A stretch of DNA of 64,000 nucleotides, taken from Haloarcula halophila. Lineage in GTDB: Archaea; Halobacteriota; Halobacteria; Halobacteriales; Haloarculaceae. The position numbers and the translations under genes are program-made. This document shows, piece by piece, positions 16,455-25,426 of this stretch. How positions within the stretch are numbered: position 1 is the stretch's first letter; every line of letters starts with the position of its first letter. The stretch lies in contig NZ_CP119559.1 of assembly GCF_029278565.1 (NCBI RefSeq), positions 1,178,001-1,242,000 on the forward strand. Direction: 5' to 3'. The notes beneath the pieces were generated by a model. It had not been told where the DNA came from. It did no database searches and saw only the letters and a program-made list of their open reading frames with translations.

Positions 16455-16539
16455 GCCGAGGTAGCCTAGCCTGGCCAAGGCGGTTGCTTCGAGAGCAACT
16501 GTCCTCACGGACTCAGGAGTTCAAATCTCCTCCTCGGCG
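16455..16539 (+). tRNA. tRNA-Ser (anticodon CGA)
   Basis: Acceptor stem GCCGAGG pairs with CCTCGGC (16532-16538), with discriminator G at 16539. The anticodon stem GTTGC/GCAAC encloses TTCGAGA, giving anticodon CGA, which reads UCG serine codons. A long variable arm (TCCTCAC.GGA region) and the T arm AGGAG-TTCAAAT-CTCCT confirm a class II tRNA. CCA is not encoded. A run of T follows (16540-16543), a plausible terminator. No intron is seen. Confidence 0.95.
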
Positions 16540-22477: not shown

Positions 22478-22587
22478 ATCCGAAGGTCACTGCTTCCGGG
22501 GTATGAATCCCGGAACGGGTTCCCACCAGATAGGAACGTGCCCGGCAGCCACAACAGCTAACACCCCCTCGGTCCTGGGTCGGGAAC

Positions 22588-22932
22588 ATGCGCGTCGTCC
22601 ACGACCCCGAGGGTGCCGCCCGCACGCTCGCGACGGAGGTCGACCGGGCCGAATCGGCCTTCGAGCAGTCCCGGGGGTTGATGTTCCGGCGGTCGATTCC
22701 CGACGACTACGCCCTGGTCTTTCCGTTCGACGGTACCGGTCGCCGGTTCATCCACATGCTGTTCGTGGCGTTCCCGCTCGACGTGATCTGGCTGGCCGAC
22801 GGGGTGGTCCAGGCGAAAAAGACGATGCACCCCTGGCGGTCGGTCGGCTGGGCGAACGCGGATACGGTCCTCGAACTGCCCGCAGGGGCCGCTGAGGGCG
22901 TCAGCGAGGGGGATACGGTCGTCGTCAAGTGA
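22588..22932 (+). CDS. DUF192 family protein
   Basis: 114 residues. Features of DUF192: RGLMFRRSIPDDYALVFPF (29-47), the conserved HMLFVAFPLDVIWL (56-69), and ADTVLELPAG (90-99). The family is a small beta-barrel-like fold of unknown function found across bacteria and archaea, often exported; this copy has no signal peptide. It stands alone on the plus strand between a divergent kinase and the leuA/cimA leader region. Confidence 0.88.
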   Translation: MRVVHDPEGAARTLATEVDRAESAFEQSRGLMFRRSIPDDYALVFPFDGTGRRFIHMLFVAFPLDVIWLADGVVQAKKTMHPWRSVGWANADTVLELPAGAAEGVSEGDTVVVK

Positions 22933-22949
22933 CCACGGCGCATCCGCCA

Positions 22950-22958
22950 CCTTTTAGA
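22950..22958 (+). promoter_or_regulatory. TATA box upstream of the leader ORF and LeuA/CimA gene
   Basis: CCTTTTAGA centred about 31 bases before the ATG at 22985 and about 122 bases before the GTG at 23076. If used, transcription begins near 22981-22985, giving the synthase gene an unusually long 5' leader of about 90 bases for this organism. Confidence 0.45.
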
Positions 22959-22984
22959 CCATGAAGGTTAGAGTAGTCACCACT

Positions 22985-23059
22985 ATGTCGGAATACCCGA
23001 CGGAGGATAGAGGAAGTCGCCGCAAGGCGGCTGGCCGAGAAATTCGTCCCGCTGTGTGA
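22985..23059 (+). CDS. Possible 24-residue leader ORF before LeuA/CimA
   Basis: ATG to TGA, reading MSEYPTEDRGSRRKAAGR then EIRPAV, in a different frame from the downstream gene and ending 16 bases before its GTG. It begins where a leaderless transcript would start from the TATA box at 22950. An in-frame ATG at 22961 would add MKVRVVTT. The ORF holds GCCGC-AAG-GCGGC (23018-23030), able to form a short strong hairpin. It could be a leader peptide controlling branched-chain amino-acid synthesis, but it is not rich in Leu, Ile or Val codons, so this is tentative. Confidence 0.35.
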   Translation: MSEYPTEDRGSRRKAAGREIRPAV

Positions 23060-23075
23060 TGGAAGTGGATTTTCT

Positions 23076-24620
23076 GTGAGTCAGAACCCATTGTTCGGAG
23101 GGCACCCAGCGACGCGTGCCCTCACAGATGTCGGTGAGGTACAGTTCCTGGATACGACCCTGCGCGACGGCGAGCAGGCCCCCGGCGTCTCGCTGACGCC
23201 CGACGACAAGGCCCGGATCGCGCGCAAGCTCGACGACGCCGAGATCGACGTCATCGAGGCCGGCAGCGCCTGTACCGGCCCCGGCGAGCGCGAGACGATC
23301 TCGCGAGTCGCCGAACTCGACCTCGACGCGACGGTGACCAGCTTCTGCCGTGGCATCAAAAACGACATCGACCTCGCGCTGGAGTGTGACGTCGACGGGA
23401 TCAACCTCGTCGTCCCCGCGAGCGACAAACACGTCGAGCGGAAGGTCGGCACCTCCCGCGAGGAGAACGTCGCCGCGACGATGGAGTTAGTCGAGTACGC
23501 CACCGACCACGGCCTCTGGGTCGAGGTCATCGGCGAGGACGGCTCCCGGGCGGAGTTGGACTACCTCGAAGAGTTGTTGGGGGCCGCGCTGGATGCCGGT
23601 GCCGACCGCATCTGCTGGGCCGACACCGTCGGGCACGCCACGCCGGACCGGGCACTCGAATGTGTCTCCCGGCTCGCCGACCTGGGACCAGTCAGCACCC
23701 ACACCCACGACGACCTCGGACTCGCCGTGATGAACGCGCTCGTCTCCGTAGCCGCCGGCGCAGATCTGGTCCACGGGACGATCAACGGCATCGGCGAGCG
23801 GGCCGGCAACGTCGCCCTGGAGGAGGTCGCGATCGCACTCGATCACGGCTACGGCGTCGAGACGATGAAACTGACCGAGGTCCACGACCTCGCGGACCTG
23901 ATCGCCAGCCGGACCGGGATCCCGCTGGCCCCGAACAAGGCCGTCGTCGGCCAGAACGCCTTCACCCACGAGAGCGGTATCCACACCGACGGGACGCTCA
24001 AAGACGACGCGATGTACGAACCCTACCCGCCGGAGAAGGTGGGTCGGGAGCGTCGCCTCGCGCTGGGCAAACACGCCGGCCGGGCCGGCGTCGAGGCCGC
24101 GCTGGACGAACACGACGTCGAGGTGACCGACGAACAACTCGACGAGATCGTCGCCCGTGTCAAGGAGATCGGCGACCGCGGCAAGCGGGTCACCGACGCC
24201 GACCTGCTGACGATCGCCGACGACGTGACCGGCCAGGAACAGGATCGCCGCGTCGAGTTGCTCGGCCTGACGGCCGTCTCCGGATCTGACACCCCGACAG
24301 CGAGCGTCCGGCTCTCGGTCGACGGGGAGGAGCGCAAGGAGGCCTCCGTGGGTTCGGGGCCAGTCGACGCCGCGATGAACGCCGCCGAAACCGCACTCTC
24401 TCACGCCGCCGACGCGACCCTGGAGGACTACCACGTCGACGCGATCACCGGCGGGACAGACGCGGTCGTGACCGTCGAGATCGAGATGTCCCGCGGCGAC
24501 GACCACGTCCGAGTCTCGGCGAGCGACTCCGACATCACCCGTGCGTCGGTCCGGGCGATGGTCGACGCGATGGACCGACTGGTCGCCGACGACAGCGAAC
24601 GGCTCGTCGCCGACGACTGA
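23076..24620 (+). CDS. 2-isopropylmalate / (R)-citramalate synthase family protein
   Basis: 514 residues, GTG start. LDTTLRDGEQAPGVS (25-39) is the HMGL-like catalytic signature with the metal Asp, and THTHDDLG (about 207-214) gives the two metal histidines. The TIM barrel is followed by a linker (HESGIHTDG at about 303) and a C-terminal LeuA-type regulatory domain (about 390-505). It condenses acetyl-CoA with a 2-oxo acid: 2-oxoisovalerate for leucine, or pyruvate for the citramalate route to isoleucine. The two activities cannot be told apart by eye; haloarchaea usually have one of each. An unusual leader region precedes it. Confidence 0.9.
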   Translation: MSQNPLFGGHPATRALTDVGEVQFLDTTLRDGEQAPGVSLTPDDKARIARKLDDAEIDVIEAGSACTGPGERETISRVAELDLDATVTSFCRGIKNDIDLALECDVDGINLVVPASDKHVERKVGTSREENVAATMELVEYATDHGLWVEVIGEDGSRAELDYLEELLGAALDAGADRICWADTVGHATPDRALECVSRLADLGPVSTHTHDDLGLAVMNALVSVAAGADLVHGTINGIGERAGNVALEEVAIALDHGYGVETMKLTEVHDLADLIASRTGIPLAPNKAVVGQNAFTHESGIHTDGTLKDDAMYEPYPPEKVGRERRLALGKHAGRAGVEAALDEHDVEVTDEQLDEIVARVKEIGDRGKRVTDADLLTIADDVTGQEQDRRVELLGLTAVSGSDTPTASVRLSVDGEERKEASVGSGPVDAAMNAAETALSHAADATLEDYHVDAITGGTDAVVTVEIEMSRGDDHVRVSASDSDITRASVRAMVDAMDRLVADDSERLVADD

Positions 24621-24769
24621 GTCGAGCACACGTCCGTGTCGCCGACCAACAGAGCAGCTGCCTGCTCCTGTTTCGACCGGCGTTCGAGTCGCAGACGGAC
24701 ACCGAGGCCCCGTTCGACAGCCGGATCAGACGGTACTGAGAGCTATCCAGGTACACCCGCGGGAGTGTG

Positions 24770-25426
24770 TTACTCGGCGATATCGACGACGGCGTCTAAC
24801 CCATCGACCTCGTAGGTCGGCGTCACGGAGAGGTCGGTGTCGACGGTGTGTGGCCGGCGGACGAACGCCGAGTCGATGCCCGCCCGCCGGGCCGCCTCGA
24901 TGTCCGATTCGCTGTCGCCGACGTACAGCGCGTCGGTCACACCGAGGTCCGCCAGTGCCTGTTCGATGTAGTAGGGACTGGGTTTCTTCCGTCGGAGGCT
25001 CCCGACGGTCGGCGGGCGACCCCTGACAGTCCCGAAGTGTCGATCCAGTCCGAAGTGGTCGAACGCGAAATCGACGGTCGCCTGCTGGTTCGAGGAGACC
25101 ACGCCCAGTGGCCCGTCGAGCCGATCGAGGACTCTGACGTCGCCGTAGGGACGCTTCTCTCCCGCCCGGATCGCCGCCCGCTGGGCCTCCGAGATCGCTC
25201 GGTCCCGAGCTCTCCAGAACTGCTCGGGGTCCAGCCCGTAGTGGCGACAGACCGCGTCGAGTCGGTCCGGTGTGACGCCGATACGCATCGCTTCCAGATG
25301 GTCGGGCCGGGGATCGACGACGCCGACCCGTCTGAACGCGTCCCGGGTCCCCGCCTGATGGGTCCTCGTACTCGTCAGGGTCAACAGGACGCCGTCGTTG
25401 TCGAAGACGACCGACTCGTACCTCAT
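24770..25426 (-). CDS. HAD family phosphatase
   Basis: 218 residues from the ATG at 25426; a TTG two codons earlier is less likely. Motif I is VFDNDGVLLTL with Asp-9 as nucleophile and Asp-11 as acid/base. Motif II is VVSSNQ (about 112-117), motif III Lys lies in RRKKPSPYY (about 147-155), and motif IV is YVGDSESDIEAARRAG (about 168-183). The helical cap at 15-95 makes it a C1-cap enzyme of the phosphoglycolate phosphatase type. The substrate is unknown. Neighbours suggest no pathway. Confidence 0.88.
   Translation of the reverse strand: MRYESVVFDNDGVLLTLTSTRTHQAGTRDAFRRVGVVDPRPDHLEAMRIGVTPDRLDAVCRHYGLDPEQFWRARDRAISEAQRAAIRAGEKRPYGDVRVLDRLDGPLGVVSSNQQATVDFAFDHFGLDRHFGTVRGRPPTVGSLRRKKPSPYYIEQALADLGVTDALYVGDSESDIEAARRAGIDSAFVRRPHTVDTDLSVTPTYEVDGLDAVVDIAE

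Follow-up and report, generated by a model that had tools for sequence, protein, structure and literature searches.

A candidate +1 ribosomal frameshift site in the RF03001 leader of leuA in Haloarcula halophila and related haloarchaea

Bacterial prfB is decoded by +1 frameshifting, in which a short zero-frame ORF that ends in a stop codon gives way to a +1 product, with conserved stimulators. In prfB, as in antizyme, the stop codon is located at the shift site. According to the sections of PMC8211752 considered here, antizyme combines the same elements: a short zero-frame ORF with a stop, a +1 product and conserved stimulators. The leader of leuA described below has a comparable layout, but its stop lies 1–8 codons past the putative shift codon in all loci except one, with at least one sense codon in between. 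Phage T4 gene 60 offers another comparison. In the parts of PMC5009743 considered here, its bypassing depends on stimulators located 5′ of the take-off codon, namely a structure and the nascent peptide; 50 nt are bypassed there, whereas a single base is predicted to be skipped in the leuA leader. The hairpin of the leuA leader ends 6 nt before the GAA of the proposed shift site, and could form there behind the ribosome, like the upstream structure of gene 60. In archaea, recoding is described for Sulfolobus fucA1, but it is a −1 event, and +1 recoding has been suggested for HSTV-2, but this is a virus; the parts of PMC8211752 and PMC5009743 considered here report no demonstrated +1 shift for any archaeal chromosomal gene.

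Pfeiffer and Dyall-Smith (2021, PMC8305020) observed that orthologues of leuA2 (HVO_1510) have no canonical start and proposed that translation starts either at a CTG in frame or at an ATG out of frame, the latter needing slippage, perhaps when leucine is absent. In the parts of this paper considered here, proteomic peptides show that HVO_1510 is translated upstream of Met-93, and the phenotype of an isoleucine auxotroph is assigned to HVO_0644 (leuA1); these main-text parts contain no link to RF03001, no further genes and no choice between CTG and slippage. A literature search found no later treatment of leuA2 slippage, or of a haloarchaeal frameshift at leuA or DUF7528. Since slippage at leuA2 was already proposed in 2021, the idea is not new. 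What is new is the link with RF03001, the scale, the extension to leuA1, DUF7528 and other leaders, and the use of loci devoid of any NTG as evidence against a CTG start.

RF03001, the leuA-Halobacteria element, was reportedly among the 224 candidate structured RNAs published in 2017. In Rfam it is classed as cis-regulatory RNA, while it is read here as a probable coding sequence with a +1 shift site; a literature search found no description of its mechanism and no mention of the motif name. The DNA analysed here is a stretch of 64,000 nucleotides of the H. halophila genome (hereafter the window), and it contains a full-length member of this family, a cis-element 5′ of leuA in Halobacteria. 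The match covers model positions 1–53 of 53, exceeds the gathering score of 47.9 bits and is far beyond chance. Above the cut-off, RF03001 occurs in 114 of the 146 genomes of the window's family and in 312/391 genomes of a class sample. In a phylum sample the figure is 16/120, and all the matches listed are in the window's own order. The genomes closest to the window belong to a single genus, and the named genomes that carry the motif include Haloarcula species. One genome (G143) has a second, broken copy of leuA (L116), whose RF03001 leader is still intact.

A sequence-only reading of the window had pointed to a TATA-like box, an ORF for a 24-residue leader peptide and a GCCGC/GCGGC hairpin ahead of leuA, and all three are present (Table 1). 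The box is contained in CCTTTTAGACC (22950–22960). In 104 of 149 loci of this type, the best TTTATA-like element begins between −34 and −32 relative to the ATG, a distance that in haloarchaea goes with leaderless or almost leaderless initiation. In the window, the position of the box predicts a 5′ end at ATG 22985 or a few bases off. Positions 22985–23059 translate to MSEYPTEDRGSRRKAAGREIRPAV, 24 amino acids followed by a stop, and the GCCGC/GCGGC motif is found within a 7-bp stem (23015–23021 with 23026–23032) closed by a GCAA loop. The presence, ahead of leuA, of a conserved and regulatory-looking leader ORF with a hairpin is thus confirmed.

Table 1. Features of the leuA leader in window coordinates
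Feature	Position	Strand	Remark
TATA-like box TTTTAG	22952..22957	+	33 nt upstream of ATG 22985; equivalent position in relatives
Frame-0 leaderless-type ORF, M..EDRGSRRKAAGREIRPAV, then stop	22985..23059	+	24 codons; the first 20 are the proposed N-terminus of LeuA
Rfam RF03001 leuA-Halobacteria element	22996..23048	+	cmscan, 75.6 bits, E 2.9e-13
Purine-rich, SD-like GGAGGATAGAGGA	23002..23014	+	near-invariant by position counts
Hairpin AGTCGCC-GCAA-GGCGGCT	23015..23032	+	7 bp, GNRA-type loop; pair counts from 149 loci
leuA-frame CTG, competing candidate for a non-AUG start	23031..23033	+	invariant in 149/149 type I loci; +28
Proposed +1 shift site CGA GAA ATT C (frame-0 codons)	23036..23045	+	C 23045 predicted to be skipped; GAAAT invariant in 149
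leuA-frame stretch VPLCDGSGFS, shift site to annotated GTG	23046..23075	+	+1 open in every member of the genus
Frame-0 stop TGA	23057..23059	+	near stop common to 148/149 loci
leuA, read from GTG	23076..24620	+	2-isopropylmalate synthase, subfamily NF002085 above cut-off

The regulation proposed in the sequence-only reading fared differently. No Leu-rich leader was found in MSEYPTEDRGSRRKAAGREIRPAV, which has no Leu, one Ile and one Val, and a simple scan of 22500–24900 revealed no terminator hairpin with a U run on the + strand. Classical attenuation through Leu or Ile codons was discarded because there is neither a run of such codons (no Leu codon, a single Ile codon) nor a terminator-like site on the + strand. 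A mini-ORF encoding MEVDFL (23059–23079) shares bases of its ATG with the leader stop, and bases of its own stop with the GTG of leuA. It was rejected as a second uORF, as it is not conserved and relatives have TGACGG or TGAAGG. A small ORF immediately 5′ of leuA (22588–22932) has a sub-threshold match to NF002996 (45.1 vs 146 bits). Elsewhere in the window, a tRNA match at 16455–16539 has, in the Rfam alignment, an insertion of 13 bases 3′ of the anticodon arm, which may represent an intron or else a long variable arm.

The RF03001 element, referred to as the type I leader, was placed in 175 loci, of which 149 distinct ones were kept, 98 ahead of leuA and 51 ahead of a gene for a small protein of the Pfam family DUF7528. 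The broken copy L116, two weak matches (L095 and L096) and exact duplicates of the compared stretch were left out. The motif test missed four DUF7528 loci, and these are absent from the counts that refer to 145 loci (98 leuA and 47 DUF7528). Type I coordinates are counted from the G of GAG, window position 23003. The element was placed with a matrix derived from 110 of these loci, and every type I locus came from a leuA or an Rfam search, so that the conservation of the motif is partly by construction, whereas that of the ATG, the stop, the frame of the gene and the spacing is not. The locus counts include related genomes, which are not independent.

An in-frame ATG is found 1–11 codons 5′ of GAG 23003 in 145/145 classified loci, and the leader ORF is thus kept in relatives. 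Frame 0 is closed by a stop at +45 to +66 in 148 of the 149 loci, the exception being L177, where it comes only at +114. The background of frame-0 stops inside these genes is 433 in 53,568 codons, and a near stop is expected by chance at about 6%. Relative to the ATG, the gene that follows (leuA or DUF7528) lies in frame +1 in every one of the 149 distinct loci, and the frame-0 ORF overlaps this conserved +1 protein ORF. The distance between the element and the core of leuA takes 22 values, with one phase throughout. If the spacing merely separated the element from an independent start, it would not keep this phase. Moreover, the +1 frame has no ATG, GTG or TTG within the transcript in 27/145 loci (13/98 for leuA, 14/47 for DUF7528). 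A set of named genomes gave 120 stretches, 80 of which were put to the test; five of these were cut off and 75 were readable, and all 75 are alike, frame 0 closing between +48 and +54 (71 leuA, 4 DUF7528). Architecture, frame rule, missing starts, near stop and conservation are all given by the sequence. They make it likely that 22985–23059 is, rather than a leader gene of its own, the 5′ coding part of leuA, to the rest of which it would be joined through a +1 ribosomal frameshift near CGA-GAA-ATT-C.

The window does contain a possible independent start of the +1 ORF, GTG 23076, and ribosomes could terminate at the leader stop and re-initiate there; this is the translational coupling suggested by the sequence-only reading. 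The 32 loci of the genus keep this GTG, mostly 16–19 nt past the frame-0 stop (10 nt in L037), an SD-like GGAAGTG precedes it in most of them, and several other genera have an aligned GTG or TTG. Where the spacing is that of the window (12 loci), no periodicity is seen in the ten codons that lead up to GTG 23076 (145, 161, 152), in contrast to what follows it (182, 75, 432). But coupling leaves the strict +1 phase at 22 spacings unexplained, and a canonical start is missing not only in the type I loci mentioned above but also in 23 of 30 loci of the paralogue leuA1, while two of 56 loci with a type II leader have no NTG at all. Re-initiation as the general explanation is therefore rather unlikely: the fixed phase and the many relatives without a start speak against it for the family, although it could still operate in the genus of the window. 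There, the lack of periodicity before the GTG, the periodicity after it and the mostly conserved GGAAGTG suggest that GTG 23076 may be used too, as a secondary route after termination at TGA 23057.

The proposed shift site is conserved in type I: the invariant GAAAT is followed by T (131 loci) or C (18), then by C (139) or G (10). Each pair of the preceding stem is standard in 96.6–100% of the sequences (149 loci), and two-sided changes are seen. A long-range pairing between GGAGGAT and ATTCTCC, spotted by eye, is not universal and was dropped. Between +30 and +41, variation is concentrated at +32 and +35 (23035 and 23038), whose entropies are 1.71 and 1.87 bits compared to 0–0.53 for their neighbours; they are the frame-0 third positions of GGN and CGN. 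From +43 on, the frame-0 pattern is lost, and +45, which is a third position in the +1 frame, is C or G in 147/149 loci. In close pairs, the substitutions located 5′ of any canonical start are distributed as 71, 59 and 101 over the +1 codon positions. In the same stretch, the codons with a single change are synonymous in 58/148 cases in the +1 frame, compared to 29/132 in frame 0 and 43/147 in +2. This pattern lends modest support to +1 translation upstream of the canonical starts. The frame-0 N-terminal and hairpin part shows no excess of third-position changes in close pairs (58, 42, 30), and the GC content by +1 codon position, from the stop to the core, is weakly periodic (0.615, 0.579, 0.648).

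The leuA loci that lack RF03001 have a type II leader, ATG ACC NGT GAN CGN TTT ATT C GGG. In 56/56 selected loci, leuA is in the +1 frame and frame 0 stops 2–14 codons past ATT; these loci were selected by ATG, CGN TTTATTC and a downstream leuA, so the conservation of the shift site in them is partly due to selection. A looser pattern is found in 71/391 genomes of the class, some of which are chance matches (L227 and several of L239–L248, among which L242 and L243 are genuine); a text pattern for the leuA core did not match L261–L264. A hairpin TTCGGGG...CCCCGAA, seen by eye, overlaps the shift site in many type II leaders, and in many a G run (CGGGGG) follows the site. Such a run might indicate slippage of the RNA polymerase, and a frame change could also come from assembly errors. 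However, the run varies in length, down to three G in L242 and L243, the type I site has no run longer than AAA, and the 149, 56 and 30 loci of the three sets are all concordant, which makes this origin of the frame change scarcely credible.

The leuA1-type paralogue, 37% identical, has a leader which reads ...CGG(N) GRT CGA GTT C in frame 0. It is in the +1 frame in 30/30 loci, with a frame-0 stop 6–11 codons further. The leuA1 of H. halophila itself (L002, region G000:C1:243714, outside the window) is preceded by a GTT-C leader with its ATG out of frame. Of ATG, GTG and TTG, the leuA frame of this transcript offers a single codon, a TTG located 32 nt 5′ of the site. Among six DUF7528 paralogues without RF03001, four show a type III leader, ...CCT GGT CGN GTT C, with DUF7528 in +1; L202 did not fit this leader and L192 is also outside the four. 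The AlphaFold model of DUF7528 (pLDDT 91.5) gave no Foldseek match at an E value of 0.001 or better. In several genomes (L203–L208), DUF7528 lies, by eye, near folD-like and small zinc-finger-like genes, and a link to one-carbon metabolism is possible. All these leaders share a core, R-x-(I/V) or R-V, with NTT then C. A hairpin is located upstream of the site in RF03001 and at the site in type II, and none is obvious in the GTT-C leaders.

LeuA could alternatively initiate at CTG 23031, or at a GTG in type II, the ATG ORF being a separate, overlapping regulatory uORF. An in-frame CTG has already been raised in the parts of PMC8305020 considered here; the invariance of this codon in type I fits the idea, as does the GTG found at the aligned place of the +1 frame in 54/56 type II loci. 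In the other two, L209 and L260, the aligned codon is GGG and no NTG precedes the core. These are two species, whose leuA genes differ by 90 synonymous and 26 non-synonymous codons. Four of the 30 leuA1 loci have no NTG either, and within leuA1 the CTG is at +16, at −35 or absent, depending on the locus. In type I, the C and T of the CTG belong to invariant stem pairs, and the freedom of frame-0 third positions persists beyond the CTG. The existence of loci without NTG rules out a CTG start as a general rule. Considered on its own, the type I sequence may be compatible with it, but overall we consider such a start improbable, even more so than re-initiation.

The deep sequence conservation and the covarying hairpin would also suit a metabolite-binding riboswitch, or a hairpin recognised by a protein, that acts on leuA translation with no frameshift. 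This would leave the phase of the ORF, the near stop and the +1 phase of the gene unexplained, and the leuA1 and type II leaders obey the same frame rule although they do not have the RF03001 hairpin. Such an RNA element is very improbable as an alternative to the frameshift.

With a +1 frameshift, expression of leuA would proceed as follows. Transcription would begin at or beside ATG 22985, as judged from the TATA position. The ribosome would initiate at this ATG and translate the purine-rich stretch and the hairpin in frame 0 as M SEYPTEDRGSRRKAAGRE I. Some ribosomes would then skip one base at 23036–23045 and switch to +1 (VPLCDGSGFS-VSQNPLFGG...), which would yield a LeuA of about 544 residues with the predicted trans-frame peptide ...EI-VPLCDGSGFSVSQNPLFGG..., while the ribosomes that do not shift would terminate at TGA 23057 and release the 24-residue peptide. 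We infer the shift event itself, its exact base, its efficiency and its signal from these features.

Codon chemistry suggests how the slip might occur. The P-site tRNA(Ile, GAU) would move from AUU, with a G-U wobble, to UUC, with a G-C third position. More generally, a P-site tRNA with G34 would exchange G-U on NTT for G-C on TTC and retain two of its three pairs. Such a slip would account for the presence of T-ending codons in GC-rich genes, and the principle of NTT followed by C also appears to fit the other leaders (ATT-C, GTT-C). In 18 of the 149 type I loci, however, the shift codon is ATC instead of ATT. A slip from GAA to AAA alone was rejected as a general explanation, since TTT takes the place of GAA in type II and the codon is absent from types III and IV. 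The hairpin, if it re-formed behind the ribosome, would aid the slip.

The shift could be controlled by the supply of branched-chain amino acids, but this is a guess. The codon that follows the shift site mostly specifies Leu (T at +43 in 72/149 loci) or Arg (G at +43 in 68/149); since it varies, there is no single hungry codon, and sensing of leucine only is unsupported. In a broader proposal, to which we give about even odds, haloarchaea have a +1-frameshift regulon in which both leuA paralogues and DUF7528 would be made only after a one-base skip, from a leaderless ATG, at R-x-(Ile/Val) with NTT-C. At least four types of leader would then sense the supply of branched-chain amino acids or of tRNA, and RF03001 would be protein-coding.

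If the frameshift is true, RF03001, an orphan Rfam motif, would gain a function, and it would become clear where translation of a key biosynthetic gene starts in most of the sampled haloarchaea. The annotated N-termini of leuA1, leuA2 and DUF7528 would need correcting in many genomes, and a +1 frameshift of deep conservation would be known from ordinary genes of archaeal chromosomes.
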